Positions 9,107 to 50,503 of a stretch of DNA of 59,445 nt are shown one piece after another. Location of the stretch: contig JABDGP010000010.1 in assembly GCA_013285945.1 (NCBI GenBank), positions 1-59,445 on the forward strand, written 5' to 3'. Source of the stretch: Bacteroidota bacterium. Its GTDB lineage: Bacteria; Bacteroidota; Bacteroidia; Cytophagales; Cyclobacteriaceae. Each line of letters opens with the position of its first letter. Positions within the stretch are counted from its first letter, which is position 1. The translations under genes and the position numbers were made by a program. The notes under the pieces were generated by a model. The model saw only the letters and a program-made list of their open reading frames with translations. It was not told the DNA's origin and did not search any database.

Positions 9107-9197
9107 GCGGCAGGGATAGTAGCGGAAAGCCCACAGCCTGCGTTGGGTTGTGTGGGGAGGCGAGGACTTGCAGCGAATAGCCCGCCCGGCCGCCCAA
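9107..9197 (+). repeat. Dispersed structured intergenic repeat, copy A
   Basis: This is one of four related elements in the window. Core 1 (GCAGGGATAGTAGCGGAAAG, from 9110) and core 2 (GGACTTGCAGCGAATAGCCC, from 9164) flank a variable, GC-rich middle able to form a CCACA/TGTGG stem. The outer ends GCGGC (9107-9111) and GCCGC (9189-9193) can pair. Core 1 and core 2 resemble each other. It occupies most of the gap before the sigma-factor gene. No coding potential is apparent. Confidence 0.75.
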
Positions 9198-9256
9198 AGT
9201 TTTCTTAACTTGCTCTTGTAACATCTCATTTATCATCCCGTCTTGCCTTTGATACG

Positions 9257-9766
9257 ATGAATCTCGAAGACTTTGAAACAAGGGTATTACCCGCCAAAAA
9301 CAAGCTTTACCGCTTTGCTTTCCGCTTGCTGGGTAGCAGTGAAGAGGCCAAAGACGTGGTGCAGGAGACAATGATCAAAGTATGGAACGGGCGCGACCTG
9401 GCCGAAGTGCAAAACATGGAGGCTTGGTGCATGCGCATCACTAAAAACCTGTCGCTCGACAAACTGCGTAGCAAGCAACGTAAGTCTACAAGCTCGATCG
9501 AAGATGGGTTTGAGGTTCGTCACGAAGGGTTGTCGCCTCATGATAAAACGGAATTAAAAGAAAGTATGAAACGAATAGATGAATTGATGACGTTGCTGCC
9601 CGACAAACAGCGGCAGGTGATGCACCTGCGCGACATCGAAGGTCACAGCTACAATGAAATTTGTGAAATACTGGAACTGGACATGAACCAGGTGAAAGTG
9701 AATTTGTTTCGCGCGCGTAATGCCGTGCGGGAAAAACTAATTAAACTCAATGCGTATGGACTCTAA
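9257..9766 (+). CDS. ECF-type RNA polymerase sigma factor
   Basis: This 169-residue sigma-70 family protein has the two-domain extracytoplasmic-function layout. Region 2 spans about residues 20-85 (FRLLGSSEEAKDVVQETMIKVW, MEAWCMRITKNLSLDKLR). Region 4 spans about 115-162 (LPDKQRQVMHLRDIEG with helix-turn-helix SYNEICEILELDMNQVKVNL). It directs RNA polymerase to a dedicated promoter set. Its last 17 bases overlap the next gene, which encodes an anti-sigma-like membrane protein, and two DUF4252 genes follow; sigma-antisigma-DUF4252 order is a recurring Bacteroidota arrangement. Its regulon and signal cannot be read from this sequence. Confidence 0.95.
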   Translation: MNLEDFETRVLPAKNKLYRFAFRLLGSSEEAKDVVQETMIKVWNGRDLAEVQNMEAWCMRITKNLSLDKLRSKQRKSTSSIEDGFEVRHEGLSPHDKTELKESMKRIDELMTLLPDKQRQVMHLRDIEGHSYNEICEILELDMNQVKVNLFRARNAVREKLIKLNAYGL

Positions 9767-10283
9767 GCATATAGAACAGTTGCTGGAAAAATACTGGAAC
9801 GCAGAAACCTCGCTGGAAGAAGAGCAGGAATTGCACCGGTTTTTTCAAGGCACGGATGTTCCTGAAAACCTGAAAGAGACGGCCGCACTCTTTCGCTATT
9901 TTGAAACTGAGAAGTCGCGCGGACTTAATGAAAATTTTGATGCGGCTGTAACAAAACAAATCAGGCAGCGTCATGGTGGAAAGATCGTTTCAATGACTAA
10001 CTGGTTTTCGATAGCACGTGTAGCAGCAGGAGTGGCAGTAATTGTAGCAGCAGTTTACATGATCGGGCATGAAGTGCGCAAGTCATCGCCCACAGAAATA
10101 GCTGATACGGAGAGCGACCCCAAGCTGGCCTTTGAAGAAACAAAGAAAGCGTTGCTGATGATTTCGAAAAATTTTCACAAGGCGCAACATGAAGCGAGCA
10201 AGATCAACTTGCTGAATGAAGCCGAAGAGAAGATCCAGCACAAGCCAAATGAACCGGAGAAAGAAAGAAAAGTAAACATTTAA
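9750..10283 (+). CDS. Anti-sigma-factor-like single-pass membrane protein
   Basis: The 177-residue product has a soluble N-terminal part (residues 1-85; KHIEQLLEKYWNAETSLEEEQELHRFFQG), one transmembrane helix (VAAGVAVIVAAVYMIG, about 90-106) and a charged, mostly helical tail. Coupling to the sigma gene by a 17-base overlap, together with the topology, points to an anti-sigma factor holding the sigma at the membrane. The HxxxCxxC zinc motif of the ZAS class is absent, so it would be a different anti-sigma type. A second in-frame ATG lies at 9756. Function is inferred from context and topology. Confidence 0.75.
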   Translation: MRMDSKHIEQLLEKYWNAETSLEEEQELHRFFQGTDVPENLKETAALFRYFETEKSRGLNENFDAAVTKQIRQRHGGKIVSMTNWFSIARVAAGVAVIVAAVYMIGHEVRKSSPTEIADTESDPKLAFEETKKALLMISKNFHKAQHEASKINLLNEAEEKIQHKPNEPEKERKVNI

Positions 10284-10311
10284 AAGATTTTTAAAACAAA
10301 ATAACAAGGCT

Positions 10312-10857
10312 ATGAAAAAGTTAATGATTGGTGCAGTGATGATGGTGTGGTCGGTAGTAGCTAATGCGCAAGGCGATGCCATTGCCAAGTTCTTCGCCAA
10401 ATACCAGGATGACGAGAGCTTCACACAAGTGAAAGTGAGTCAAAAAATGTTTGGTTTGTTTACCAACATGGATGTAGACAAACCCGAAGACAAAGAAGTG
10501 CTTGACGCCATAAGCAAAATTCAGGGCTTGCGCGTGCTTGCAAAACATGAAACCCGCGATTCGCGAGCATTGTACAAAGAAGCATTGGCAGTGATTCCTG
10601 CGAACACCTACGAGGAACTGATGAGCGTGCGCGACAAAGACAAAGACATGAAGTTCTTCATCAAAGAAATCAGCTCTGGCAAAATCGGTGAGTTAGTGAT
10701 GGTGATGGGTGGCAACGATGAATTTATGATGCTGAGCTTGTTTGGCGAGATTGATTTGAAGAAGATTTCAAGCATTGGCAAAAGAATGAACATTGAAGGG
10801 CTGGATAAGCTCGAAAAGATTAAGGACCACAAAGAGCGTAAAGACAAGAAGAATTGA
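10312..10857 (+). CDS. DUF4252 domain-containing secreted protein (first copy)
   Basis: This 181-residue protein has a signal peptide (MKKLMIGAVMMVWSVVANAQ) and matches DUF4252 by its pattern: DAIAKFFAKYQDDESFTQVKVSQKMFGLF near the start, a central segment TYEELMSVRDKDKDMKFFIKE, then GKIGELVMVMGGNDEFMMLSLFGEIDLKKIS. The biochemical role of DUF4252 is unknown. It lies 28 bases after the anti-sigma-like gene and is closed by a strong hairpin at 10873-10911. Co-location with the ECF sigma gene suggests it is part of that envelope-response unit. Confidence 0.85.
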   Translation: MKKLMIGAVMMVWSVVANAQGDAIAKFFAKYQDDESFTQVKVSQKMFGLFTNMDVDKPEDKEVLDAISKIQGLRVLAKHETRDSRALYKEALAVIPANTYEELMSVRDKDKDMKFFIKEISSGKIGELVMVMGGNDEFMMLSLFGEIDLKKISSIGKRMNIEGLDKLEKIKDHKERKDKKN

Positions 10858-10872
10858 TCGGTGAGGTTGTAT

Positions 10873-10912
10873 AAATTTCGAGCCAAGGGTTTAACTCAAG
10901 GCTCGAAATTTT
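10873..10912 (+). terminator. Terminator between the two DUF4252 genes
   Basis: A 12-bp perfect stem pairs 10873-10884 (AAATTTCGAGCC) with 10900-10911 around a 15-base loop; its 3' arm ends in TTTT. It separates the sigma/anti-sigma/DUF4252 unit from the second DUF4252 gene and includes the upstream in-frame start at 10911, which I therefore reject. Confidence 0.8.
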
Positions 10913-10937
10913 GGTGGTTCATCTAAAAAAATCAAAA

Positions 10938-11483
10938 ATGAAAACGTTATCCCTCTTATTACTTGCTGCAATTCCAGTATTTGTTTCTGCTCAGACCAAG
11001 ACAACGGAAGAACTGGATAAAAAATACGAAGGCCTTTCTTTGTATTTCTACAAAAACACATTGCGAATGCTAAACCAAACCGACGACAAAAATTTTGATG
11101 AACTGATCAGGGATATTGAAAAAATGAAGTTCATGATGATTGATAAGCCTAAAAGTAATTTTGGCGATGCGGACTATAAGAAACTGAAGAGCGGTTACCG
11201 ATCTGAATCTTATGAAGAGATGATGACTAGCCGCTTCCAGGGAAGAAATTTTGATGTGTACATCAAACAAAGCGATGGTAGAGTAAAAGGCACAGTAATT
11301 ATCGCCAGCGACTCAGCCAATTTATATGTGCTTGATATTATAGGCCGCGTAGCTTTGGACAAGGCTACTTCACTTTTTAGTACACTGAACCAAAGCACCG
11401 ACATTGGTCAGCGGATGAAAAGCTTTGTGAGTGATGGTGACAAGCCCAGGGACAAAAAGAAACATGGAGTAAAGATCGATTGA
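10938..11483 (+). CDS. DUF4252 domain-containing secreted protein (second copy)
   Basis: From the ATG at 10938 the product has 181 residues, the same length as its neighbour, and starts with a signal peptide (MKTLSLLLLAAIPVFVSAQ). The order of motifs follows the first copy: a helical YEGLSLYFYKNTLRMLN, a central SYEEMMTSRFQGRNFDVYIKQ, and GRVKGTVIIASDSANLYVLDIIGRVALDKATS. The two are divergent tandem duplicates. The upstream in-frame start at 10911 lies inside a terminator stem. The ABC transporter gene follows after 20 bases. Confidence 0.83.
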   Translation: MKTLSLLLLAAIPVFVSAQTKTTEELDKKYEGLSLYFYKNTLRMLNQTDDKNFDELIRDIEKMKFMMIDKPKSNFGDADYKKLKSGYRSESYEEMMTSRFQGRNFDVYIKQSDGRVKGTVIIASDSANLYVLDIIGRVALDKATSLFSTLNQSTDIGQRMKSFVSDGDKPRDKKKHGVKID

Positions 11484-11503
11484 CAAAATAAAAACACAGT
11501 TCA

Positions 11504-12409
11504 GTGGAAACAGTTTTATCAACCAGCAAGCTCACAAAAAATTTCGGAAGACTTTGTGCTGTCAACCGGCTGGATCTGGAAGTACAGCGCGGCCAGATCT
11601 TTGGCATGCTTGGCCCCAATGGCAGTGGCAAGACAACTACGCTCGGTATGCTGATGGGCGTAACAAATCCGACATCAGGGAGCTTTACCTGGTTTGGAGA
11701 ACAGGCCACTAATCTTACAAGAAAAAAAATTGGAGCAGTGTTAGAGCATCCGATTTTCTACCCTTACCTGAGCGGCCAAAAGAACCTTGAACTCAATGCC
11801 ATGATCAAAGGTGCTGATCCGGCAAACATTCCAAAAGTACTTGAGGTAGTGGAACTCACGGAACGAAAAGATCATAAGTACAAAACGTATTCGTTGGGTA
11901 TGAAGCAACGGCTGGCCATTGCGTCGGCTTTGGTGAGCAATCCTATTATTCTCATTTTGGATGAGCCGACCAACGGCCTTGATCCGATGGGCATTGCAGA
12001 GATTCGCGAGATTATCAAACGCATTGCTGCTGATGGAAAGACAATTATTCTTGCCAGCCACCTGCTGGATGAAGTACAGAAAGTATGCACCCACTTTGCC
12101 GTTTTGCGGAAAGGAAGTTTGATGCACTGCGGTCCGGTGGATGACGTAGGCAAAGGCGAAGAGACCGTAGAGGTTGTAGCTTTCCACGATGACCTAAGTC
12201 ATATTTTACATGAATTCCGCGGTTCACTTTCAGTGAAAACCGAAAACGGAAAATTTCAGGTGCGCATGCGCGAAGGATTTCACAGTATAGATCTAAACAA
12301 GTTTCTTTTTGAGAAAGGAATAGTAGCCTCGCACATTCTTACGCAGAAGAAAAGCCTGGAGAAACAGTTTTTGGAAATCCTTCAAGAGACACAAGAAGTA
12401 AAACACTAA
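11504..12409 (+). CDS. ABC transporter ATP-binding protein
   Basis: This 301-residue protein is a complete nucleotide-binding subunit of the BcrA/CcmA-like exporter class, using a GTG start at 11504. Walker A GPNGSGKTT is at residues 38-45 or so. The signature loop is the SLGMKQRLAIA variant typical of this class; Walker B with D-loop is LILDEPTNGLDP and the switch histidine lies in ILASHLLDE. The last 90 residues are a poorly conserved accessory region. It pairs with the permease gene starting 8 bases downstream. The substrate is unknown; lipids, peptides and antibiotics are all possible for the class. Confidence 0.95.
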   Translation: METVLSTSKLTKNFGRLCAVNRLDLEVQRGQIFGMLGPNGSGKTTTLGMLMGVTNPTSGSFTWFGEQATNLTRKKIGAVLEHPIFYPYLSGQKNLELNAMIKGADPANIPKVLEVVELTERKDHKYKTYSLGMKQRLAIASALVSNPIILILDEPTNGLDPMGIAEIREIIKRIAADGKTIILASHLLDEVQKVCTHFAVLRKGSLMHCGPVDDVGKGEETVEVVAFHDDLSHILHEFRGSLSVKTENGKFQVRMREGFHSIDLNKFLFEKGIVASHILTQKKSLEKQFLEILQETQEVKH

Positions 12410-12417
12410 GATTTAGT

Positions 12418-13221
12418 ATGTTGCATTTGCTGAAAATCGATTTAAAGAAACTCACCAGCTACCGCACCTTTTGGGTAGTATGTGGCTTATACTTTTTTAC
12501 GCTGGCCTTTGTTACTGCCAGCGGCATGGAAATTTTAAAATGGCTTGCAGGCAAGGGTGCTGAGTTTGGCGCCACAATTAACATCAATCGGATTCCGCTT
12601 TATCATTTCCCTGACGTTTGGCAGAATCTCGTTTTCATTAGCGGCATGTTCAAGATTGTGCTGGCAATTATGGTGGTAATCTCTGTTACAAACGAATATC
12701 AATACCGCACCATTAGACAGAACATCATCGACGGCATGAGCCGCTGGGAGTTTTTACTTTCCAAGATCCTTACCAATGGATTATTGAGTTTGATGAGTGT
12801 TGTGATGGTATTCGTAATTGCTCTGGTTACCGGAATGATCTATTCTCCGGAGATAATTCTGGCCGATGTATTTTCAGATCTGGAATTTTTTCCTGCTTAC
12901 TTTCTTGAGGTTTTTGCCTTCCTTTCCTATGCGCTGATGCTTGGCATTTTGGTACAACGCTCAGGCCTCACAATAATATTGTTGTTGCTATCACATATGA
13001 TTGAGACGATCATGAAAGTAAATATCCCCGGTACGGCAGCCGGCGTTAGAGATTTTTTCCCGATGCAGTCTATCACCAACCTTGTTGCTTTGCCTTTTGC
13101 ACGTTATGCGCTCCAGGAGATCCAAGATTATGTTGCTATCAGTGCTGTTGCCATTGCAGCCGCATGGACTTTCCTGTTCAATTATTTTGCCTATCTCAGG
13201 CTAAAGAAAGCTGATATTTGA
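12418..13221 (+). CDS. ABC-2 type transporter permease subunit
   Basis: The 267-residue product has six predicted transmembrane helices: TFWVVCGLYFFTLAFVTASG, LVFISGMFKIVLAIMVVISV, LLSLMSVVMVFVIALVTGMI, FLEVFAFLSYALMLGILVQ, LTIILLLLSHMIET and YVAISAVAIAAAWTFLFNYFAYLRL. The topology and the charged loop NEYQYRTIRQNIIDGMSRWEFLLSK after the second helix are typical of ABC-2 permeases; this loop couples to the ATPase encoded immediately upstream. Together they form a two-gene exporter. Repeat copy C begins one base after the stop. Confidence 0.88.
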   Translation: MLHLLKIDLKKLTSYRTFWVVCGLYFFTLAFVTASGMEILKWLAGKGAEFGATININRIPLYHFPDVWQNLVFISGMFKIVLAIMVVISVTNEYQYRTIRQNIIDGMSRWEFLLSKILTNGLLSLMSVVMVFVIALVTGMIYSPEIILADVFSDLEFFPAYFLEVFAFLSYALMLGILVQRSGLTIILLLLSHMIETIMKVNIPGTAAGVRDFFPMQSITNLVALPFARYALQEIQDYVAISAVAIAAAWTFLFNYFAYLRLKKADI

Positions 13222-13331
13222 TTGGCGGCCTGGCCAACGAAACGTCTGGCCACCGGGCTATACGCTACAATCTTTTTGCCCAACCCACTTCCATCAGGGT
13301 AAAAAGGATTTCCGCTGCTATCCCTGGCCGG
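13222..13331 (-). repeat. Dispersed structured intergenic repeat, copy C
   Basis: Read on the minus strand, core 1 (CCAGGGATAGCAGCGGAAAT, near 13328-13309) and core 2 (GATTGTAGCGTATAGCCCGG, near 13273-13254) flank a middle containing a TTTTT/AAAAA stem around an ACCCTGATGG loop region. A TGGCCA...TGGCCA palindrome lies outside core 2, and the element ends GGCCGCCAA. Its orientation is opposite to copies A and B. It fills the first 110 bases after the permease gene and could also act as its transcript end. Confidence 0.72.
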
Positions 13332-13412
13332 TGCACAGATTCAATTTAATTCAAACTCATAGCTCATAGTGCTCAACTTGCTTTCAATCCCCAGAATGGT
13401 TTTCTTCGGGCG

Positions 13413-13943
13413 ATGATTCGAAACCCACTGTTTAAAATCCCTTTTCGTTACGGACTTATTGGTGGCGCACTCGGGTGTGTCGTCATGGTGGCTTTGTATT
13501 CCATGGGCCGTCATCCGTTTTTGCTACCCGTGTTTGTCGACTTTCGCATCGCTATTTTCGCCGTCTTTATTTTTTTTAGCCTGAAAGAAGTCCGCGACTA
13601 TTATCAAAATGGCACTTTGTTCTTTTGGCAGGGAATGATTGGCAGCTATGTTTTCATTTTTACTTCCGCCCTGATCGGCTCAGTCTTTACATGGTGTCTT
13701 GTGAAGTGGAATGGGGCATTTCTTGCTTCATATATTGAGAAGCTGCAAAAGCAAATGCTCGGTTATAAGAAAGAGATTGTTGAAAGTGTAGGAGTGGAGG
13801 CCTACCAACAGCAGCTGGACAAGTTGCCGCGTACCACGGCATTGGATTTGGCCGGCGATTACTTTTTGAAAAGTATGATTATCGGCCTATTTTTGACAAT
13901 CATTATATCAGTGATTTTGCGCAAACAACCTAAAAACCTCTAA
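13413..13943 (+). CDS. DUF4199-like four-helix membrane protein
   Basis: The 176-residue product shows transmembrane segments at about 11-32 (YGLIGGALGCVVMVALYSMG), 38-55 (FVDFRIAIFAVFIFFSL), 70-93 (GMIGSYVFIFTSALIGSVFTWCLV) and 148-167 (FLKSMIIGLFLTIIISVIL). Between the third and fourth lies a charged extracytoplasmic loop of about 50 residues with a coiled-coil look (YIEKLQKQMLGYKKEIVESVG). This topology fits DUF4199. It lies two bases before a second gene of the same kind, so the pair is probably a tandem duplication. Function unknown. Confidence 0.75.
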   Translation: MIRNPLFKIPFRYGLIGGALGCVVMVALYSMGRHPFLLPVFVDFRIAIFAVFIFFSLKEVRDYYQNGTLFFWQGMIGSYVFIFTSALIGSVFTWCLVKWNGAFLASYIEKLQKQMLGYKKEIVESVGVEAYQQQLDKLPRTTALDLAGDYFLKSMIIGLFLTIIISVILRKQPKNL

Positions 13944-13945
13944 TC

Positions 13946-14467
13946 ATGGAAGAAACTACAACAAATCCCCCAAGTGTCCTTTCTACAGGCGTTAAATTCG
14001 GACTTATTATAGCTGCAGTTTCTATCGCCTGGTTTATCATCCAGGTCGTGATAGGTATAAACCCCTTTGTGAGAGACTGGAAGGGCTGGCTGAGCATGGC
14101 TGTTTCAATAGCGATTGTAGTTTTTGCTCATAAAAGTTTCAAAGATTCGGGAGACGGATATATGTCGTATGGACAAGGCCTTGGCATTGCTTTTATAGCC
14201 ATTATGGTTTCAGTTTTGTTAGGTTCTATTTTTAGCTACATCTATATCAACTTCATTGACCAAACCGTGATGGACGAAGTATGGGAAAAGGCTTTGGAAG
14301 AAGCTCAGTCAAAAGGACAGAATGAAGAAGCAGCTCAAATGGGTATTGAGTGGGGTAAGAAATTATTTTGGGTGTTCTATTTAGTTGGTGGCGCATTTGT
14401 AGCTTTAATTATAGGGTTACTTGTTCCAATTTTTACACAAAAGAAAAACCCGGAGCCCTTCGTTTAA
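13946..14467 (+). CDS. DUF4199 domain-containing membrane protein
   Basis: This 173-residue protein repeats the layout of its upstream neighbour: four hydrophobic segments (GVKFGLIIAAVSIAWFIIQVV; WLSMAVSIAIVVFAHKSF; GQGLGIAFIAIMVSVLLGSIFSYIY; VFYLVGGAFVALIIGLLVPIF) with a loop of about 50 residues (DQTVMDEVWEKALEEAQSKG) before the last one. The GDGYMSYGQGLGIAF segment before helix 3 is characteristic of DUF4199. It is two bases downstream of the first copy and 13 bases upstream of the probable start of the glycosyltransferase gene, so all three are likely co-transcribed. Confidence 0.82.
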   Translation: MEETTTNPPSVLSTGVKFGLIIAAVSIAWFIIQVVIGINPFVRDWKGWLSMAVSIAIVVFAHKSFKDSGDGYMSYGQGLGIAFIAIMVSVLLGSIFSYIYINFIDQTVMDEVWEKALEEAQSKGQNEEAAQMGIEWGKKLFWVFYLVGGAFVALIIGLLVPIFTQKKNPEPFV

Positions 14468-14480
14468 AAAATTTGCAGCA

Positions 14481-15434
14481 TTGGACATTTCGCTAATCAT
14501 TCCCGCCAAGGACGAAGAACAATCTATTCCCGAACTGACGCAATGGATAAGCCGTGTGATGCAATCGCATGGCTTTTCGTATGAAGTGATTTATATAGAT
14601 GATGGAAGTACTGATGGAACCTGGGAGCAAATAAAAAAAGCCGGTGAAGCGAATCCCTCCATCAAGGGATTGAAGTTCAATCGCAACTTTGGAAAGTCGG
14701 CAGCGCTGCACATGGGATTTAAGGCTGCTCAAGGCGATGTGGTTATAACCATGGATGCCGATCTGCAAGACAGTCCGGATGAGATTCCCGAGCTTTATAA
14801 ACTTATCAAAGAGCAGAAATTCCATTTGGTAAGCGGATGGAAGAAAAAACGTCACGATCCGATTTCGAAAACACTGCCGTCGAAGTTTTTTAATTATATC
14901 ACGCGAAGGATATCGGGCATACCACTCCATGATTTCAATTGTGGATTGAAGGCGTACGATGCGCAGGTAGTAAAAAACATAACTGTGTATGGCGAAATGC
15001 ATCGCTACATACCTGTGCTGGCCAAATGGGCTGGTTTCACTAAGATCACTGAAAAAGTTGTAGAACATCGCGAGCGAAAGTATGGCCACAGCAAATTTGG
15101 TTGGGAACGTTTTGTGCGTGGCTTTCTGGATTTACTCACAATTACGTTTGTGGGGCGGTTTGCCAGCCGACCAATGCATTTTTTCGGGTCGTGGGGAATT
15201 GTTTTCTTTTTGATGGGAACGGCCTTCACAGTAAAATTATTTTGGGACAAGATGGACGCGTTATTCATTTCCAAAATTCCATTGAAGCGCGATATCACTG
15301 AGCAGCCTTTCTTTTACCTCGCCCTGGTCACCGTGGTGATTGGTGTTCAACTTTTTGTAACTGGCTTTCTCGCTGAGCTGATTGCGCGGCAATCGGTGTC
15401 GAAAAAGGATTATCTGGTGATTGAGAAAATCTAG
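14481..15434 (+). CDS. Glycosyltransferase family 2, polyprenyl-phosphate sugar transferase type
   Basis: This GT-A enzyme resembles GtrB/DPM-type transferases, which move a sugar from a nucleotide donor to polyprenyl phosphate at the inner membrane. Visible motifs are SLIIPAKDEEQSIPEL, DDGSTDGTW, the metal-binding DADLQDSPDEIP and DFNCGLKAYD, then two C-terminal transmembrane helices (FGSWGIVFFLMGTAFTVKLF; PFFYLALVTVVIGVQLFVTGFLAELI). The start is uncertain: the frame extends up to an ATG at 14421, overlapping the preceding gene by 47 bases, but the conserved domain begins at DISLII, so I prefer the TTG at 14481 (317 residues). Confidence 0.9.
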   Translation: MDISLIIPAKDEEQSIPELTQWISRVMQSHGFSYEVIYIDDGSTDGTWEQIKKAGEANPSIKGLKFNRNFGKSAALHMGFKAAQGDVVITMDADLQDSPDEIPELYKLIKEQKFHLVSGWKKKRHDPISKTLPSKFFNYITRRISGIPLHDFNCGLKAYDAQVVKNITVYGEMHRYIPVLAKWAGFTKITEKVVEHRERKYGHSKFGWERFVRGFLDLLTITFVGRFASRPMHFFGSWGIVFFLMGTAFTVKLFWDKMDALFISKIPLKRDITEQPFFYLALVTVVIGVQLFVTGFLAELIARQSVSKKDYLVIEKI

Positions 15435-15495
15435 ACTTAATAATTTCTCTGATATAAATGCTCACCTCGGAGCGTCGTTTACTCATTTCTTAGAA

Positions 15496-16052
15496 ATGAT
15501 GTATCCCAATAGAGTAGCTTGTTCAAAAATTACTGAATTGTTACCCTCCAAAGTTTTTAGAAATTATTCACTGAGCGGCTATTATCTAATAAGCTTTTGC
15601 ATCCTGGCATTTCCGATTTACCTCTTTACCCATGGAATACCCTTTATTTTGCTCTCATTTATACTATTCCCTTACTGTATGTTTTTGCCTATATATTTTA
15701 CAGACGAGGTTTGTCTTTAATAGTAAAAAAAGACGCAATTACCATTAATTACCTCAACCCCTTTAAAAAGAGTATCATTATTCCCGGCGGAAGTATTTCG
15801 GCGATCACTGTTGAAAGTCCAACGTTTAGAAATGAAAGGAGTAACTACTATTTACTCTTTTTGATAGCAGCTATGTTTTCTGAAGGGCGCACGTTTTTTG
15901 GAAATCGGGATTTACTCCATTTGAAAATATCTGAGGCGGAAAGCGTTACGCTTATTTGGGGCTATGGCGATTCGTTCAAAGCTATGCTCCAAGCAATAGA
16001 GCGTGCGAGGAGTATTAATATTCGCAAATTGAATAATGAAGAGCCCTTGTAA
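15496..16052 (+). pseudogene. Small membrane protein gene split by an apparent frameshift
   Basis: Two overlapping frames look like pieces of one gene. Frame 1 from the ATG at 15496 encodes MMYPNRVACSKITEL and a hydrophobic stretch (GYYLISFCILAFPIYLF, then PFILLSFILFPY) and stops at 15720. Frame 2, open to 16052, continues with LYVFAYIFYRRGLSLIVKKD and a beta-rich domain (AITINYLNPFKKSIII, ISAITVES) resembling a membrane-anchored PH-like domain. A one-base change between about 15600 and 15705 would join them into a protein of about 185 residues. Alternatives are a sequencing error or independent use of the second frame from 15597 (151 residues). The family is not recognised. Confidence 0.5.
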
Positions 16053-16227
16053 CTAGCCACCAGAGAGTGGATATTCATCAAGGCAACCGAACCAGCCATT
16101 CAAAATACTCGATGACTTTTTACTTTTAACTCCCCAGAACTTATTTTCCCTTACTTTTGTCTCTCGTTTGTTATTCGTTCTTTGATTTGAGTTTATTATG
16201 GCGAGCTACACTTTGCAATTGCTCTGT
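16053..16227. other. Non-coding gap before repeat copy B
   Basis: No open frame of substance is seen on either strand. There is a small CCAC/GTGG hairpin at the start and T-rich DNA from about 16110 to 16190. With the repeat (16228-16345) and the short AT-rich tract up to 16390 (ACTATTGACTATTAACTAATGACTAAG), it makes up the longest gene-free stretch in the window, about 340 bases. I see nothing else in it. Confidence 0.5.
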
Positions 16228-16345
16228 GCGGCAGGGATAGAAGCAGAAGCGTCCCGAGTTATTCGGGAAGCCCGAAGCGCTGTGGATTGAGCGGTGCCGG
16301 AACTTGTAGCGTCCCGAAGCTTCGGGAAGCCCGTTAAGCCGCCCA
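16228..16345 (+). repeat. Dispersed structured intergenic repeat, copy B with nested palindromes
   Basis: The element starts GCGGCAGGGATAGAAGCAGA and ends GCCGCCCAAG; the terminal GCGGC (16228-16232) and GCCGC (16338-16342) can pair. Unlike the other copies, each core carries a short palindrome right after an AGCG: TCCCGAGTTATTCGGGA in core 1 (from about 16252) and TCCCGAAGCTTCGGGA in core 2 (from about 16312), both followed by AGCCCG. This suggests two parallel insertions of a TCCCGA/TCGGGA mini-palindrome at equivalent positions. It lies about 45 bases upstream of the tmRNA. Confidence 0.75.
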
Positions 16346-16390
16346 AGTATCTTACAAATAACTATTGACTATTAACTAATGACTAAGACT

Positions 16391-16781
16391 GGGGCTGACC
16401 GGTTTTGACAGGATGTGCGGGGGTGTATGCCAGCATGCAGGCTCATGGGATGAGAGCCTCAAAAGATAGTCCTACAATTTATGTGGCGAAAATACTTACG
16501 CCATGGCTGCTTAATCTGACCTAAGGTTAGATTAGCTTATCCGCTGATAAGATCGGTGGAGGCCATCATCGCCCACACTTCTGTTCAGCGGGTGTGGATA
16601 TGCGGTGTCGAATGCACGAACTGGGCCTCGTTGTGTTGCGCAGCGATGTCGAGATAACAGCAACTACGGAATAATTTAGGCTGTTGCCTGCCTTAGTGTT
16701 CCCGACAATTAAAGTCAACTAAGCATGTAGAACGTACACGTTCGTCTTCTCTGGACCAGGGTTCGATTCCCTGCAGCTCCA
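16391..16781 (+). ncRNA. ssrA: Transfer-messenger RNA (tmRNA)
   Basis: The 5' end GGGGCUG pairs with CAGCUCC at the 3' end and includes the G3-U pair recognised by alanyl-tRNA synthetase. The T-arm (GGTTCGATTCC) precedes it. The tag reading frame starts at GGC (16485) and ends with TAA (16512-16514), encoding GENTYAMAA, a variant of the Bacteroidota tag pattern. CCA is not encoded: the discriminator A at 16781 is followed by CTA. The RNA rescues stalled ribosomes together with SmpB, which is not in this window. A terminator follows at once. Confidence 0.97.
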
Positions 16782-16786
16782 CTAGA

Positions 16787-16819
16787 AAAGCCACTTGAAA
16801 GAGTGGCTTTCTGTTTTTT
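16787..16819 (+). terminator. tmRNA terminator
   Basis: AAAGCCACT (16787-16795) pairs perfectly with AGTGGCTTT (16802-16810) around a six-base loop, followed by CTG and six T residues (16814-16819). Confidence 0.9.
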
Positions 16820-16895
16820 GATTCCTGTCTTCTAGTTTTGGTATTTAGTAAATTTTAACTTTTCTTCGAATCGGTCACCGCAAGTAATCAAAAAT

Positions 16896-42707: not shown

Positions 42708-42712
42708 AATCA

Positions 42713-44393: not shown

Positions 44394-45139
44394 GTCTGCA
44401 AACAATCGATATCAATTGCGATATGGCCGAAGGTATTGGCAATGAAGCTGAATTAATGCCATGGATAAGCTCGGCAAATATTGCATGCGGGTTTCATGCA
44501 GGTAATGAAGATTTAATGAAAAGCACAATTGAACTTTGCCAAAAATATCAGGTTGCTGTTGGTGCTCATCCTTCGTTTCCTGACAAGGAAAATTTTGGAA
44601 GAACAAATATGAACTTGCCCGCTGATCAGATTTATGAAATGGTTTCAGCACAAATTCATCTCTTAAAAAAAATAGCGCGCGTGCAGGGCATTCGGGTTCA
44701 CCACGTTAAGCCTCACGGGGCACTTTATAACATGGCAGCGAAAGATGCAGCTCTGGCGGGCAACATAGCAAGAGCGGTAAAAGACTTGGATAGCACTTTG
44801 GTTTTCTATGGCCTTTCTCAGAGTGTAATGATTGATGCGGCAAAGAAATTAGACCTGAGAGTTGCCAATGAAGTATTTGCAGACAGGACTTATCAACCAG
44901 ACGGATCGCTTACGCCAAGGACACAGCCTAATGCTTTGATTATTGACGAGGAAGAGGCGATTCAGCAGACTATCCGACTGACAAAAGAGGGAAAAGTGAT
45001 GACTGCTTCTGGTGAAGACATTCAATTGAGAGCGGATACACTTTGTTTGCATGGCGATGGGAAGCATGCAGTAGCTTTCGCGAAATTGATTCATGCCCGT
45101 TTGAGATTAGAGAAAATTAAGATTGCAACCATTGAGTAA
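44390..45139 (+). CDS. pxpA: 5-oxoprolinase subunit PxpA (LamB/YcsF family)
   Basis: The 249-residue YcsF-family protein is the third PxpABC subunit. The family pattern is clear: IDINCDMAEGIGNEAELMPWISSANIACGFHAGNE, GAHPSFPDKENFGRTNMNL, VHHVKPHGALYNMAAKD and EVFADRTYQPDGSLTPR. The gene overlaps pxpC by four bases and the transporter gene by 17, giving a contiguous galM-pxpB-pxpC-pxpA-transporter operon. Confidence 0.96.
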   Translation: MSLQTIDINCDMAEGIGNEAELMPWISSANIACGFHAGNEDLMKSTIELCQKYQVAVGAHPSFPDKENFGRTNMNLPADQIYEMVSAQIHLLKKIARVQGIRVHHVKPHGALYNMAAKDAALAGNIARAVKDLDSTLVFYGLSQSVMIDAAKKLDLRVANEVFADRTYQPDGSLTPRTQPNALIIDEEEAIQQTIRLTKEGKVMTASGEDIQLRADTLCLHGDGKHAVAFAKLIHARLRLEKIKIATIE

Positions 45140-46310
45140 ATTCAAAATACTTTCAGGGCCACTGGCCGGCGCGGCCTTCTTGATGGCAACCTCGGCAATA
45201 GGTCCGGGATTCATCACACAAACCACAACATTTACTGAGCGACTTAAAGGGAGCTTTGGGTTTGTGATTTTAATTTCGATTCTGCTTGATATTGGTGCTC
45301 AGCTTAACATTTGGCGGCTGATAAGTGTAAGCAGAATGTATGCTCAGGACCTTGCCAACAAAGTAGTGCCTGGTGCCGGATACTTTTTGACGGCATTGAT
45401 TATTTTGGGCGGACTTGCCTTTAACATTGGAAATATCGCCGGAGCCGGACTGGGTTTTCAGGTATTGTTTGGATGGAGTGTGCAAACAGGGGCAATAGTC
45501 AGTTGTATCATCGCCGCAGTTATTTTTCTCGTAAAGGAAGCTGGCAAGGCGATGGATGTTTTTGCTAAAACATTGGGCTTCGTGATGATTGCGTTAACCT
45601 TCTATGTTGCGTTTCAAGCAAACCCTCCGATAGCGGAAGCTGTTATGAAAACGTTTCTGCCAGACCAAATTGATGAGCTGGTAATCCTTACCATTGTGGG
45701 TGGCACTGTGGGTGGTTACATTAGTTTTGCGGGCGCTCATCGCCTGTTGGATGCAGGGATTTCTGGTAAAGAAAATTTAAGACAGGTTTCTCAAAGTTCG
45801 GTCTCAGCTATTTTGATTGCTTCACTTATGCGTACGATTTTATTTATTGCGGCCTTAGGTATAGTGTGGCAAGGAATTTCGCTGGGTAATGAAAATCCCG
45901 CAGTTGTGGTTTTTGAAAGTGCCGCAGGACGAATTGGCTATAAGATTTTTGGATTGGTATTGTGGAGTGCTGCTATCACTTCGGTAGTCGGTTCAGCGTT
46001 TACTTCAATTTCTTTTGCGAAATCGATTCATCCTTCTGTTGAAAAGTATTTCCGTCATCTGATCATCGTGTTCATTCTCCTATCTACGATTATTTTTTTG
46101 ATCGTAGGCGAACCTGTAAAAGTGTTGGTAGCTGCGGGTGCAATTAACGGATTGGTTCTGCCGTTTGCTCTGGCAATTATTCTTTCATCAACTTTTAAGA
46201 AAGACATTTTATTAAACTATAAACATCCGCTTTGGCTGTCAATTCTCGGATGGATAGTAGTTATAGTAATGACTTATATCGGCGTGCAGGGCCTGATACA
46301 CTTTACTTAG
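45123..46310 (+). CDS. Nramp-superfamily transporter without canonical metal-binding motifs
   Basis: The 395-residue protein has about 11 transmembrane helices and the Nramp fold, and begins with TTG at 45123 inside the pxpA gene (TTG at 45132 is an alternative). In true manganese/iron Nramps helix 1 carries DPGN; here the aligned stretch reads AIGPGFITQ (residues 25-33), lacking both the Asp and the Asn. Helix 6 lacks the MPH pair and reads GGYISFAGAHR. It is therefore unlikely to carry divalent metals. Because it is fused into the pxp operon, as the Nramp-like ycsG is in the Bacillus ycsF-kip cluster, I infer 5-oxoproline or a related substrate. Confidence 0.85.
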   Translation: MQPLSKFKILSGPLAGAAFLMATSAIGPGFITQTTTFTERLKGSFGFVILISILLDIGAQLNIWRLISVSRMYAQDLANKVVPGAGYFLTALIILGGLAFNIGNIAGAGLGFQVLFGWSVQTGAIVSCIIAAVIFLVKEAGKAMDVFAKTLGFVMIALTFYVAFQANPPIAEAVMKTFLPDQIDELVILTIVGGTVGGYISFAGAHRLLDAGISGKENLRQVSQSSVSAILIASLMRTILFIAALGIVWQGISLGNENPAVVVFESAAGRIGYKIFGLVLWSAAITSVVGSAFTSISFAKSIHPSVEKYFRHLIIVFILLSTIIFLIVGEPVKVLVAAGAINGLVLPFALAIILSSTFKKDILLNYKHPLWLSILGWIVVIVMTYIGVQGLIHFT

Positions 46311-46326
46311 CTATTTGTAATAGTAT

Positions 46327-46764
46327 TCACCAGCTCACGCTAAAGAATCCACGGTGACTTTGTGCTATCGTCACGAAAATAACAACTAGGGCAATCACAT
46401 TGAGAATAAACATGCGTTTATGCTTAGCTGTGCCATCAGCAAGTTTTTTGGCAGAAATACGAGCAACCGAGATCAATACGATAGCGATCAGCATGCCTGT
46501 GAAATGTTCAACCAACCAGTAACGCGCAACAGAATCCTTCATTGATGCTCCGCTGAAAATGACAATCGGGCTTACAAAATAAAGAATCAAGCCAAGTAGT
46601 AATTGTGTGTGTGTCGAGATAAAAAGGAAAAGACTCAATTTATCGTCAGCTTTTTCAAAGGGAGATTTGTTTAGCCAGCCCGTCAGTGACTTTCCAATCA
46701 CAACCAATAACAGGATTAGTAATACATAGCGATTGAGTGAGTGAAGGACAACAAGTATTTGCAT
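46327..46764 (-). CDS. Four-helix membrane protein with conserved-looking histidines
   Basis: The 145-residue product has four hydrophobic segments (YVLLILLLVVIGKSLTGWL; LFLFISTHTQLLLGLILYFV; LVEHFTGMLIAIVLISVARI; MFILNVIALVVIFVTIA). Histidines lie at or near the helix ends (LHSLNR, STHTQ, VEHFTG, QSHRG), reminiscent of heme-binding cytochrome b-like four-helix proteins, but no family can be asserted. It converges on the Nramp-like gene and is divergent from the ion-channel gene. Confidence 0.7.
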   Translation of the reverse strand: MQILVVLHSLNRYVLLILLLVVIGKSLTGWLNKSPFEKADDKLSLFLFISTHTQLLLGLILYFVSPIVIFSGASMKDSVARYWLVEHFTGMLIAIVLISVARISAKKLADGTAKHKRMFILNVIALVVIFVTIAQSHRGFFSVSW

Positions 46765-46876
46765 GGCTCTAATTTTTCGGAAAATTACAACTTAGCTCTA
46801 AACAAAACTAAGACCTTAAACTCTAAAGTTGAAAAAATTTGAGAAGTGGCGGGTTGTTGTTTACTTTGAGTTGTTT

Positions 46877-47821
46877 ATGAAGCGATACTTACTCCTTCTT
46901 GCCTTGGCGGTTCTATGCCCGCCAGCACAGGCAGCACCTGACACCGTGAAGGTTGGCGCGTATGTGATGAGCGTGCATGATATCAACTTTCACGACAAGG
47001 AGTACACCGCTCGTTTCTGGCTGTGGTTCCTGTACAATGATAGAAAATTTGACTTTGTAAAGCAGCTGGACATCACTAATGCCAAAACCATTGACACGCC
47101 TCAACTATTACAAGATAGTATTGGAACACAGCAATGGTCAATGCTGAAGATGAAATGTATCATGAAAGAAAACTGGAATGTACTCGACTTTCCATTCGAC
47201 AAACAACATCTGAGAATACATATCGAAAACTCTCTGTTTGATAGAAATGATTTGATATTCAAGCCAGACGTGAGAGGGAGCAAATTTGATCCCGATGAAA
47301 CACTGGCAGGCTGGAAGATTAAAAACTTTAATGTAAACGCAAGCGAGAAGTTATACGAAACGGGATTTGGTGACTACAGGCCGGGCAAAGATCATCAGGT
47401 ATTCTCAGCGTTTAATATTGAAATGGATATTGAGCGAAATGCATGGGGACTGTTTTTAAAAATATTCATCGGTATGTATATCTCATTCCTGATTGCGATG
47501 GTTGGTTTTGCCCCACATCCATCAGAAGTCGAGCCACGTTTTGGATTACCGGTAGGCGGACTGTTTGCGGCTGTGGGTAACAAATATATAATAGATTCAA
47601 TCTTACCAGAATCTGCTTCTTTTACCTTGGTTGATACTCTTCATTCGATTACCTTCTTTACAATTTTTGCCATTCTGGTAGTTTCAGCTATTTGCCTGAA
47701 ACTTCACGATATGGAAAAGGTAGAAGAAAGTGTACGAGTAAACAGAATTGGCTCTAAAATGGTAGCGAGTATTTACGTGCTGGCCAACGTTATCCTGGTA
47801 TGGGCGGCAGCGGCTTCTTAA
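46877..47821 (+). CDS. Pentameric ligand-gated ion channel homologue (Cys-loop receptor type)
   Basis: From the ATG at 46877 the product has 314 residues with a signal peptide (MKRYLLLLALAVLCPPAQAA); an in-frame TTG at 46829 would put charged residues before it. The N-terminal beta-sandwich (DTVKVGAYVMSVHDINFHDKEYTARFW) contains the superfamily hallmark FPFDKQ at residues 105-110; as in other bacterial members the loop lacks the cysteine pair. Four transmembrane helices follow: M1 (FLKIFIGMYISFLIAMVGFA), a pore-lining M2 rich in Gly and Ala (about 222-238), M3 (FFTIFAILVVSAICL) and M4 (VASIYVLANVILVWAAAAS). It stands alone; ligand and ion selectivity are unknown. Confidence 0.88.
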   Translation: MKRYLLLLALAVLCPPAQAAPDTVKVGAYVMSVHDINFHDKEYTARFWLWFLYNDRKFDFVKQLDITNAKTIDTPQLLQDSIGTQQWSMLKMKCIMKENWNVLDFPFDKQHLRIHIENSLFDRNDLIFKPDVRGSKFDPDETLAGWKIKNFNVNASEKLYETGFGDYRPGKDHQVFSAFNIEMDIERNAWGLFLKIFIGMYISFLIAMVGFAPHPSEVEPRFGLPVGGLFAAVGNKYIIDSILPESASFTLVDTLHSITFFTIFAILVVSAICLKLHDMEKVEESVRVNRIGSKMVASIYVLANVILVWAAAAS

Positions 47822-47823
47822 GC

Positions 47824-48276
47824 TCAGACTTTATTCTTAGTATCAATAAGTATCGTTACGGGGCCATCGTTCAGCAAATTCACTTTCATATCAGCACCAA
47901 ACTCTCCTGTCTGTACGGGTTTTCCCAGGGCGTCTGAAATGACTGAAACAAATTTCTCATAAAGCGGAACTGCTATTTCGGGCTTGGCGGCTTTGATATA
48001 ACTAGGCCGGTTTCCTTTTTTAGTACTGGCATGTAAAGTAAATTGACTGACCACAATAATATCTCCGCTGTTGTCTTTCACGCTCACATTCATCACGCCA
48101 TTGCTATCGTTGAAAATACGAAGATTCACAATCTTACCGGCAAGCCACTCGATATCTTCAGAATTATCTGCGTCCTCTATTCCAAGCAGAACCAATAATC
48201 CCTTTTCTATTTTTGATTTTATTTTTCCATCAATCGTGACGGAGGCTTCAGCGACTCGTTGAATAACGGCAATCAT
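47824..48276 (-). CDS. dtd: D-aminoacyl-tRNA deacylase
   Basis: The 150-residue enzyme removes D-amino acids from mischarged tRNAs. Diagnostic segments are MIAVIQRVAEASVTIDG at the start, the SQFTLHASTKKGNRPSY block with the conserved SQFTL, and the C-terminal GEFGADMKVNLLNDGPVTI. Length is normal. It converges on the ion-channel gene with two bases between stops and lies downstream of the gene at 48321-48842 on the same strand. Confidence 0.97.
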   Translation of the reverse strand: MIAVIQRVAEASVTIDGKIKSKIEKGLLVLLGIEDADNSEDIEWLAGKIVNLRIFNDSNGVMNVSVKDNSGDIIVVSQFTLHASTKKGNRPSYIKAAKPEIAVPLYEKFVSVISDALGKPVQTGEFGADMKVNLLNDGPVTILIDTKNKV

Positions 48277-48320
48277 CGTTTATGCTTTTCGATGAATAAA
48301 TTCAATTGAACTGCTGTCAA

Positions 48321-48842
48321 TTAAAAAGTTTGCTGAATTTCCTTTTTCACCTCGCTAAGAGCATGACCAATCGGATCCGTTTTCTTGTCCATCGTCATCT
48401 CAAAAATCTTCTTTGACAAGTCAATGCCCGTAGACTCAGCCGCCACCTGTCCAGCCGATTCATTGATAGTGATAATCAAGTCCTCTTTGGCATTGCGTAC
48501 CTGATTCCAAACTTCTTCAGTCATGTAGACTTGTTGAGAGACGTTGTGGTTATATTCATTACGAATTTCATCCAGCAACACCTTTTGAAAATCACGCGCG
48601 GTATATGCAGGGTTGTTCAGTCGAATCAGCAAGTTTTGTGGAGAGATTCGTTCCAAAAAAAGTGTTACCCGCTCATACGCCTGTAAACGAGCCGGCAGGA
48701 TCGTTTCGATGCTACGAGACCTCACTTCAAGTTTTTTCAACTCGATCTCGCGAGCAACGAAAGTACGTACCATCAAATACACAGCATAAAGCACTACCGA
48801 GGCTGGTACAAGTATTTTTATAAACTCTATTATTGCTTCCAT
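48321..48842 (-). CDS. Conserved hypothetical membrane-anchored protein
   Basis: From the ATG read at 48842 the product has 173 residues; a GTG five codons upstream (48857) is possible. One transmembrane helix near the N-terminus (IIEFIKILVPASVVLYAVYLMV) is followed by a basic, charged helix (RTFVAREIELKKLEVRSRS) and a soluble helical domain (LPARLQAYERVTLFLERISPQNLLIRLN, VLLDEIRNEYNHNVSQQVYM). It looks like a conserved Bacteroidota family but I cannot name a function. It is divergent from the IscA-like gene. Confidence 0.75.
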   Translation of the reverse strand: MEAIIEFIKILVPASVVLYAVYLMVRTFVAREIELKKLEVRSRSIETILPARLQAYERVTLFLERISPQNLLIRLNNPAYTARDFQKVLLDEIRNEYNHNVSQQVYMTEEVWNQVRNAKEDLIITINESAGQVAAESTGIDLSKKIFEMTMDKKTDPIGHALSEVKKEIQQTF

Positions 48843-48896
48843 GGGAATTATTTGCACGAAAATTAACTATTTTTCAATCACCTTTGTTTGAATATC

Positions 48897-49235
48897 ATGT
48901 TTGATTCTCTCAAACCAGTACTACTTACCCCGCTTGCGGCTGCCGAAGCTCGCAAGATCATGCAAACTAAAAACATCCCCGAAGGATATGGCTTGCGAAT
49001 AGGTGCGCGTGGCGGAAATGGCTGCGGAGGAGTTTCTCTTATTATTGGCTTCGACAAGCAAAAGTCTTCCGATCTTTCCTATGAAGCTGAAGGCATTACA
49101 ATCTTTATTGATAAAAAGCACACCATGTACTTGATTGGCAAAGCGGTAGATTTCTATGAAGGTGCCGATGCACGCGGGTTTGTCTTCATCGAACAAGAAG
49201 CCATCGAACGTGGAGGCTGGCACAAATCAAGTTGA
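48897..49235 (+). CDS. HesB/IscA-like protein lacking the C-terminal cysteine pair
   Basis: The 112-residue protein (ATG at 48897; a TTG at 48888 is also in frame) has the A-type iron-sulfur carrier fold: LLTPLAAAEARKIMQTKNIPEGYGLRIGARGGNGCGGVSLIIGFD, then DKKHTMYLIGKAVDFYE. Normal members have one Cys in this first motif and a CxC near the C-terminus; here only the first remains (NGCGG), and the end reads ARGFVFIEQEAIERGG. It is probably not a standard cluster carrier. No isc or suf genes are nearby. Confidence 0.88.
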   Translation: MFDSLKPVLLTPLAAAEARKIMQTKNIPEGYGLRIGARGGNGCGGVSLIIGFDKQKSSDLSYEAEGITIFIDKKHTMYLIGKAVDFYEGADARGFVFIEQEAIERGGWHKSS

Positions 49236-49280
49236 TCTTGCGCATTAATAGCTTAAGTCTTACAATTTGATACTTATGTC

Positions 49281-49643
49281 TTAACTCTTACCTCTCGTCA
49301 CTACCACGCTAGCTTTTTTGCAGACACCACCAATCGGTGGGTTGAACTTTGAAATCTTTACCTCTACGTTAATTGCGCTGGCAAATGTTTTTAAAATTAT
49401 TTCCGCGATCGCGTGCCCCACGGTTTCCAGCAACTTCGAGGGTTTGCTCATTTCAGTTTTTACAAGCGCGTAAAGATCTTCATAATTAATAGTACCACTG
49501 AGATCATCCCGGAAGGCCGTATTTTGAAATTCAGTCTCCACAATTACGTCCACTTCAAATTTATTTCCCGAAGATCGTTCGTGCGGATAAACTCCATGAT
49601 ACGCATGAAACTCCAACCCTTCGAGCGCTATCTTTCCATTCAT
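49281..49643 (-). CDS. folB: Dihydroneopterin aldolase
   Basis: The 120-residue enzyme makes 6-hydroxymethyl-dihydropterin in folate synthesis. The family pattern is clear: ALEGLEFHAYHGVYPHERSSGNKFEVDVIVE with the catalytic-site Glu and the tyrosine nearby, NYEDLYALVKTEMSKPSKLLETVGHAIAEII and the C-terminal VEVKISKFNPPIGG. Its start overlaps the divIVA-like stop by four bases, so the two are co-translated. Confidence 0.95.
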   Translation of the reverse strand: MNGKIALEGLEFHAYHGVYPHERSSGNKFEVDVIVETEFQNTAFRDDLSGTINYEDLYALVKTEMSKPSKLLETVGHAIAEIILKTFASAINVEVKISKFNPPIGGVCKKASVVVTRGKS

Positions 49644-50350
49644 TGAATTTCGTCAAAGAATGAGCGCTGATTTTTCATCACCTCAGCCATTGATGGAGGA
49701 GCAACAGGTTCTGTTTCTGCTGATGGCTGTTGAGTTGGCTTTTTTAATTCTGCTTCAACTTCCGCATTTGGGAAGAGCGATCTTTTTGTTTCACGCATGG
49801 CCAAGGCGAGGTGTTGATCGGGGTCGAAATCACGGCTTGCTGCTTTCGCACGTTCCATCCGGTCGATGGTTTCGTTGGCTAAACGCTTAAGATCCGACAA
49901 AAGATTTTCTTTGTGAAGCTCCAAATTTCTATAATGCTGACCAAGCATTTTCAGGCGTTCTTCCATTTCGGCCAACATTTGTTTAGAAATAGATTCGGCT
50001 TCTTCAATTGTGTTCTTGGCCTTGGTCTTTGCTTCATTCAGCATCGCGTCAGCATTCAATTGGCTTTCGCGCAAAATCAGCGCGGCTGTTTTATTAGCCT
50101 GATCAATAACATTGGCACCAGTGTCTTCGGCAGTCTTCAATGTTTTAAAAAGCGAGCTTTCCACTTCGCGCAGTTTGTTCACTTCGCGTTCGGTAGCTTC
50201 CATTTTGATTCGCATTTCTTTCGTCTCGTCCAGCGTGCGCTCCCACTCTTGCGAGAGGGATTGCAGAAATGCACTCACTTCATCTTTGTCGTAGCCACGC
50301 AAAGCTTTTTCAAAGGCCTTTTGACGAATTTCCAGTGGTGTGATTTTCAT
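49640..50350 (-). CDS. DivIVA domain-containing protein
   Basis: The 236-residue protein begins with the DivIVA membrane-binding segment ITPLEIRQKAFEKALRGYDKDEVSAFLQSL, then a long coiled coil (about 30-180, KMEATEREVNKLREVESSLF onward) and a Pro/Glu-rich tail. DivIVA proteins sense membrane curvature and recruit partners at poles or division sites; in Bacteroidota their role is little studied. The opposite-strand open frame is a mirror of the coiled coil. It is followed by folB with a four-base overlap. Confidence 0.92.
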   Translation of the reverse strand: MKITPLEIRQKAFEKALRGYDKDEVSAFLQSLSQEWERTLDETKEMRIKMEATEREVNKLREVESSLFKTLKTAEDTGANVIDQANKTAALILRESQLNADAMLNEAKTKAKNTIEEAESISKQMLAEMEERLKMLGQHYRNLELHKENLLSDLKRLANETIDRMERAKAASRDFDPDQHLALAMRETKRSLFPNAEVEAELKKPTQQPSAETEPVAPPSMAEVMKNQRSFFDEIQ

Positions 50351-50407
50351 ACAGCGGTTTTTTTAAAGTTTAAAAAATGGTCAACGAATAAGTTTAAAAA
50401 ATATTTT

Positions 50408-50503
50408 GGGGACTGGTGTGAGACACACCACCGGGCTGTTCGTTACAAGTCCGTCCAGCACACACGCAGCGCGCTTCGGGCTTTTCACTTCCATCCCTGC
50501 CCC
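50408..50503 (-). repeat. Dispersed structured intergenic repeat, copy D
   Basis: On the minus strand core 1 (GGGGCAGGGATGGAAGTGAA, from 50503) and core 2 (GGACTTGTAACGAACAGCCC, from about 50452) flank a GC-rich variable middle. A GGTGTG/CACACC hairpin lies outside core 2, and the outer ends GGGG/CCCC (50500-50503 and 50408-50411) can pair. It fills the gap between the WD40 gene and the divIVA-like gene, both minus strand. Confidence 0.72.

Follow-up and report, generated by a model that had tools for sequence, protein, structure and literature searches.

Flavo-1-type repeats in a Cyclobacteriaceae genome: paired twin cores, a variable outer stem and arms that differ as blocks between orthologous sites

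Introduction

BOX, ERIC and NEMIS/Correia are short structured intergenic repeats that occur in both orientations and have no coding capacity, and BOX is modular. Another folded DNA structure is the integron attC site, in which a single strand folds through two boxes that pair, with unpaired spacers between them and a terminus of variable structure. Here, we analyzed a repeat in a 59,445-nucleotide stretch of a draft genome from a Bacteroidota bacterium (Cyclobacteriaceae; GCA_013285945.1, contig JABDGP010000010.1), which is referred to as the window, and compared it with the Rfam family Flavo-1 (RF01705). An original prediction, made from the letters of the window, had described four copies with two mutually similar cores, pairing ends and variable middles, and had proposed that selection acts on a shape.

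Rfam classes RF01705 as a gene of the type small RNA (sRNA). Flavo-1 was named in 2010 and was listed for the Bacteroidetes as RNA (y), cis-regulatory (n) and switch (n) (Weinberg et al. 2010; PMC2864571). In the transcriptome of Flavobacterium psychrophilum, Flavo-1 hits are described as lying sense or antisense of transcribed regions alike, with many outside of them (PMC9723704). The family is also counted among the abundant sRNA families, and no function is stated in the passages that list it (PMC2864571, PMC9029176). Among the papers listed for Flavo-1, RF01705, RAYT in Bacteroidetes and Flavobacterium repeats, no title or abstract opening deals with a Flavo-1 outer stem, its arms, their exchange or its function.

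Results

Pairing of the twin cores

The four window copies were found at the predicted places and strands, with the named cores and with pairing ends of GCGGC/GCCGC or GGGG/CCCC; the ends of copy 2 read CGGCC/GGCCG. The suspected kinship with Flavo-1 was also supported, as comparison with Rfam 15 using cmscan places RF01705 on three of the four copies. Copy 2 scores 54.2 bits (E 5.3e-9, match at 13247-13333 on the reverse strand), which is above the gathering score of 42 bits, and its membership of Flavo-1 is firm. For copies 1 and 4, the match spans the full model and scores 32.5 and 29.0 bits, which is under the cut-off. All three cover model positions 1-76 in model order with core-core pairing, and the membership of copies 1 and 4 is supported at these lower scores. 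Copy 3 gave no RF01705 match at E up to 5 and a partial match (20.4 bits, E 0.024) to R1, our own covariance model built from nine copies of the source genome. It is a candidate member, supported and assigned to Flavo-1 by its orthologous place only.

Core 1 and core 2 pair with each other, and the two cores resemble each other because they base-pair mutually. The original prediction missed this pairing as well as the block exchange of arms described below. In the nine source-genome copies, five of 12 pairs are altered on both sides and 95.3% of the cells are paired. When these copies were tested against 500 shuffles, no shuffle reached the observed paired percentage, the number of cells changed on both sides (eight) or the covariation score. 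One shuffle equaled the count of five doubly changed pairs, and 63 reached the number of further pair types. The idea of selection on a shape draws support from the covariation, from the large number of copies and from the match to Rfam.

Pair exchanges are also seen in larger sets. The 53 R1 matches are selected by the model and hence biased to pairing, with a few copies held twice as overlapping or duplicated loci; their two central pairs are GC 36, AT 14 and GT 2, and CG 41, TA 9 and TG 3, with no A-C. Two pair columns in 76 Flavobacterium copies, a set biased by being the top-scoring one, read CG 42, TA 32 and GC 2, and AT 50, GC 13, TA 12 and CG 1, with no intermediate.

Outer stem, 3' arm and folding energy

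The folded base is made of a variable outer stem, a GGG/CCC-type stem and an inner stem under a variable hairpin cap. Two 3x3 internal loops, mostly GNA opposite GNA, flank a two-pair core, and a second arm is often present toward the 3' end, which lets the strand form a three-way junction. The outer stem and the 3' arm are not in the structure line of the RF01705 model. Among the copies from the family of the source genome (50 of the 51, with one tandem-duplicate copy left out), the 5-mer directly 5' of the core has an exact complement 3' of the element in 42, and 14 different 5-mers are involved. Re-pairing the ends between copies in 2000 permutations gave a mean of 11.3% and a maximum of 27%. 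Window copies 3 and 4 are among the eight misses; by eye, the stems there are shifted by one base or are four pairs long. At L105:2607-3003, a tandem duplication of about 330 bases doubles a Flavo-1 copy together with its flanks.

The minimum free energy folds of copies 2 and 4 contain the outer stem, the core helix with two 3x3 loops, the tip hairpin and the 3' arm, which together form the whole three-way junction, and they were obtained without covariation input. Energy z-scores were rejected as proof of structure since they are weak for the window family: the mean folding z is 0.1 in the 51 family copies and -2.3 in the 76 Flavobacterium copies (25 shuffles each). For copies 1 to 4, the z-scores are 0.35, 0.15, -1.76 and -2.12 when folded as RNA, 0.91, -1.02, -1.83 and -0.62 for the complement strand, and 0.19, -1.39, -3.49 and -1.25 with DNA parameters. 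The RNA values do not bear out the claim that the middles are always foldable, if energy alone is considered.

Block changes of arms at orthologous sites

At the orthologous sites examined, the base holds its orientation while the arms and the core class change as blocks. We compared 14 groups of orthologous Flavobacterium loci, chosen from flank matches among the 76 copies with short or one-sided matches excluded. The element keeps its place and relative orientation in all 14 groups, and at least eight of them show, by eye, a different hairpin or core class. In L225, the hairpin is another hairpin in inverted form, and its loop reads AAAGA instead of TCTTT. Of the 29 relatives fetched for the L204 site, 27 were readable. 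They represent three core classes (with 16, 7 and 4 members by eye), and in five of them an extra arm is present that ends in GTTCAGTGAACTTCGTTT or a close variant of it. Four further relatives have another variant in two cases and are cut in the other two. The L188 site (25 sequences) shows the same pattern, with the extra arm in core 1 or core 2 by species; some relatives there have no recognizable element.

The copy 1 site was read in seven relatives: the copy is kept in G368, a variant is present in G346 and a remnant in G362, and no copy was seen at the orthologous site in G336, G333, G334 and G364. All four relatives read at the orthologous site of copy 2 (G362, G364, G334 and G336) lack the copy, and the intergenic gap is much shorter there. 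A variant core class of the relatives, GGGATGGAGGCA..GAGTGCCGA, does not occur in the source genome as an exact pattern.

Two further observations concern the modules themselves. A similar arm, ACTTCAC..GTTCAGTGAACTTCGTTT or near to it, is inserted in Flavo-1 loops at two loci (seen in L248, L262, L266, L268 and L269 and also in L272, L276, L278, L288, L294 and L296), in core 1 or core 2 by species. In a second element class, GGGATNGAGGCA..GGCGAGTGCCGA.AGCCC, a GA/GA 2x2 loop replaces GNA/GNA. This class is found at L165:8391-8470, at L170:972-1050 and before ssrA in L174 and L178, places where other species have Flavo-1.

Distribution, orientation and neighbors

The source draft genome (2.93 Mb, 77.7% complete) has 10 RF01705 matches at E up to 1, two of them above the cut-off; at the same threshold, five of 14 control genomes have matches, none above the cut-off. 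With R1, the source genome gives 16 matches (E up to 0.01), including the nine copies of the building set. R1 matches are patchy in the family, occurring in 16 of 39 genomes with the source included. Across the phylum, with at most 15 candidates scored per genome, RF01705 matches at E up to 0.01 are present in 46 of 296 genomes (36 above the cut-off) and in none of the 14 controls. Four single-contig genomes, with 150 candidates scored in each, have 41, 33, 107 and 20 matches. Two core-pattern scans of viral contigs yielded 7 contigs and 13 contigs, respectively, and by eye the whole element is present in about 14 of these 20. Flavo-1 was rejected as a phage element, as exact cores are rare in viral contigs.

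Gene orientation was taken from simple open reading frame (ORF) calls. The 51 family copies comprise 17 with both neighbors sense, 8 with convergent neighbors, 7 with both antisense and 5 with divergent neighbors; 12 more overlap an ORF and 2 lie at an edge. The 76 Flavobacterium copies comprise 18, 10, 27 and 14 in the first four classes, 4 inside an ORF and 3 at an edge. Like BOX/ERIC-type repeats, the element is structured, non-coding, intergenic and found in both orientations, with the 12 of 51 and 4 of 76 copies that overlap an ORF. No replication-strand bias was found in three of the four single-contig genomes (p 0.17, 0.35 and 0.99 for 91, 29 and 25 listed positions). Neighboring genes show no enrichment either: 83 flanking ORFs, taken from 100 of the 227 listed, are diverse, and no Pfam family is found in more than three. 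Upstream of the elements of L181-L240, 28 of the 76 copies have a 5' motif like TTCTTTTGAAAAC, and in 18 of these it stands 8 bases upstream of TAGCC. This motif is an extended 5' head of one subfamily. It was rejected as a directional promoter: its spacing is fixed, and there is no clear orientation bias (15 sense and 11 antisense downstream genes among 26 placeable).

A link to a Y1/HuH transposase is unsupported. No Y1_Tnp was found in the source genome, at its 77.7% completeness. The domain is present in 209 of the 296 phylum genomes, as compared to 46 for Flavo-1, and nine of those 46 lack it, including four with at least 15 Flavo-1 matches. Using both covariance models, one of 30 Y1 loci has a Flavo-1 copy, about 1 kb off (L050); an earlier fuzzy text scan of the 30 loci was too blunt, as it recovers only 12 of 30 known Flavo-1 loci. 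A different family, Acido-Lenti-1 (RF01687), adjoins the Y1 transposase gene in two of the 30 loci (L054:1313-1358 and L062:1965-2010), at 36.6 and 27.5 bits, just or well under its cut-off of 37. Acido-Lenti-1, which Rfam lists as an sRNA, may not be an RNA but a REP that belongs to a RAYT.

The element before ssrA

Copy 3 lies upstream of ssrA, the gene for transfer-messenger RNA (tmRNA). Forty genomes of the genus were searched, and the stretch upstream of ssrA was read in 15 of them, the source included. Ten have an element there, always in the same orientation (the source, G334, G364, G336, G351, G333, G349, G370, G355 and G344), G358 and G367 have a remnant, and no element is present in G362, G365 and G341. 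At E up to 0.1, R1 detects seven of these elements, three of them weakly (19.8 to 24.4 bits); some relatives have clear Flavo-1 copies at this place, such as G334 (73.9 bits). The ten elements span different core classes, with the GA/GA variant in G333, G355 and G344. In copy 3, each core has an inserted palindrome of the form TCCCGA..TCGGGA at the corresponding position (the window has two, where 0.04 are expected), and these insertions are apparently why the Rfam model misses this copy.

All 15 upstream stretches contain the pattern TAnnTTTGT, and the TAnnTTTG box is promoter-like. In the window, the promoter-like sequence reads TACTTTTG. The motif GTTCTTTGA, which we liken to boxA, is exact in 11 of the 15 stretches, and the boxA-like sequence before ssrA in the window is GTTCTTTGAT; the two sequences lie within 16152-16186. 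The recurring promoter-like and boxA-like patterns suggest a putative antitermination signal in the tmRNA leader. Since the promoter-like box stands upstream of the element where read, the leader is probably transcribed through the element, and the ssrA-leader copy itself is probably transcribed.

The features of the window are listed in Table 1. Copy 2 begins a few bases past the stop codon of an ABC-2 permease gene and is antisense to both of its neighbors. The region 15430-16390, a stretch of about 0.95 kb before ssrA that holds copy 3 and an ORF of 151 amino acids with no Pfam match, corresponds to about 90 bases in G362. Positions 54645-54670 match a CRISPR direct-repeat family at 26.7 bits with a cut-off of 45, which is probably chance.

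Table 1. Flavo-1-type copies and associated features in the window
Feature	Position	Strand	Context, stem or score
Copy 1, Flavo-1-type element	9107..9193	+	between CHAT/TPR gene and ECF sigma-factor gene; outer stem GCGGC/GCCGC at 9107-9111/9189-9193
Copy 2, Flavo-1 element	13226..13330	-	outer stem CGGCC/GGCCG and 3' arm
TAnnTTTG promoter-like box	16152..16159	+	upstream of copy 3 and ssrA
boxA-like motif GTTCTTTGA	16177..16186	+	between promoter-like box and copy 3
Copy 3, divergent element	16228..16342	+	in presumed 5' leader of ssrA; outer stem GCGGC/GCCGC at 16228-16232/16338-16342
Inserted palindrome TCCCGA..TCGGGA, core 1 of copy 3	16252..16268	+	
Inserted palindrome TCCCGA..TCGGGA, core 2 of copy 3	16312..16327	+	
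tmRNA gene ssrA	16391..16784	+	RF00023, 120.3 bits
Copy 4	50408..50503	-	between WD40 gene and DivIVA gene, co-directional; outer stem GGGG/CCCC and 3' arm

Discussion

These findings may be explained by a BOX-like intergenic repeat whose folded base is under constraint and whose arms are exchanged at the DNA level, an explanation that we consider evenly poised between right and wrong. The arms would be swapped by template switching or by short-homology exchange between copies, and the hairpins themselves would make such exchange likely. What selection would preserve is the base, as a structure for recognition or docking that forms in nascent RNA or in DNA that is single-stranded or extruded. 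As with BOX- or ERIC-type repeats, the direction in which the region is transcribed would matter little. The first spread may have depended on an enzyme supplied in trans. A more specific version is that Flavo-1 is an open scaffold and not a single RNA motif. The GNA loops, the tip and the 3' junction would be its fixed sockets, hairpin modules would be swapped in and out of them at the same locus over evolution by recombination on folded single strands, and the base would be what the cell or an enzyme reads. We offer this version tentatively, with somewhat less than even confidence.

Several observations weigh against a BOX-like repeat with DNA-level exchange. The core-core pairing is missing from the minimum free energy folds of copies 1 and 3. 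No mobilizing enzyme or binding protein was identified. No clean insertion footprint or target duplication was found; the empty relatives at the copy 2 and L188 sites differ beyond the element, and their flanks are too diverged. Many of the compared copies are orthologues, so the counts are not independent. Two points lean toward RNA. The Flavo-1 strand folds better than its complement in 51 of the 76 Flavobacterium copies (mean 1.1 kcal/mol, p 0.0007), and G-U exceeds A-C by 6 to 1 once two class-dependent columns (30 C-A, 1 G-U) are removed, in both cases in sets picked by RNA models that reward such a lean. Before this removal, the 53 R1 matches hold 31 A-C cells, 30 of them C-A at the two columns, which align differently in the AATCCTTTTT class. 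The family copies show no strand preference in folding (26 of 51, p 0.53). In the window family, the upstream gene is sense in 25 cases and antisense in 12 (37 of the 51 copies placeable), a sense bias; the Flavobacterium copies show no such bias for the upstream gene (28 to 41, p 0.15).

It is rather unlikely, though a serious contender, that Flavo-1 acts as RNA, either as a transcribed sRNA or as a cis element in leaders and 3' regions. The covariation, the strand preference in Flavobacterium, the sense bias of the window family, the TTCTTTTGAAAAC-like 5' motif with its recurring spacing, and the constant orientation behind a promoter-like box before ssrA in 10 of 15 genomes all fit such a role. 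However, orientation to genes is random in the 76 copies, those with the TTCTTTTGAAAAC-like motif do not clearly favor a sense gene downstream, and in the F. psychrophilum transcriptome, as described in the passage on Flavo-1, hits fall on either strand without preference and many of them are not transcribed (PMC9723704). A transcription terminator, insulator or antitermination site between genes would account for the mostly intergenic, hairpin-rich copies, the boxA-like motif before the ssrA copy and a terminator-like hairpin seen by eye before copy 1. Such a site is improbable, given that some copies are flanked by divergent genes (14 of 76 and 5 of 51) and that one lies inside the presumed ssrA leader, where termination would harm.

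We regard a REPIN-like element, moved by a Y1/HuH (RAYT) transposase on folded single-stranded DNA, as very unlikely. The folded base, TAG-containing cores and many copies would suit such an element, and Y1_Tnp is common in the phylum, but the domain is lacking in the source draft genome (77.7% complete) and in nine of the 46 Flavo-1-positive genomes, the single copy near any of the 30 Y1 loci is about 1 kb away, and the 83 flanking ORFs are diverse. Chance likeness of GC-rich intergenic sequence is refuted: the folding energy of the window copies alone is unremarkable, but the Rfam E-value of copy 2, the covariation and the conserved orthologous places are not compatible with it.

If Flavo-1 is a modular scaffold with DNA-level exchange of arms, its covariance model would cover one class only and copy numbers would be underestimated. 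A target-binding sRNA function would then be the wrong question, and cassette-like swapping of arms on a fixed base would change how the function of Flavo-1 should be sought. The series of orthologous sites provides a natural experiment on which parts of the element are constrained.

Among known systems, RF01705 itself agrees with the window copies in core order, in the paired cores with 3x3 loops, in the variable terminal hairpin and in its occurrence in Bacteroidota. It differs in that the Rfam model has no outer stem, 3' arm, alternative core classes or arm insertions. REP and REPIN elements with their RAYT share the many intergenic hairpin copies, whereas Flavo-1 has no Y1 link and its cores are direct repeats that pair mutually. 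The integron attC site is alike in having a folded strand, two paired boxes, unpaired spacers and a variable terminus, a likeness of description; integrases and cassettes were covered only as far as the Pfam scan of the 83 neighbors reaches. BOX, ERIC and NEMIS/Correia differ from Flavo-1 as no target-site duplication or terminal inverted-repeat footprint was found for it here, and they resemble it, again by description, in being short, structured, intergenic, non-coding and present in both orientations.

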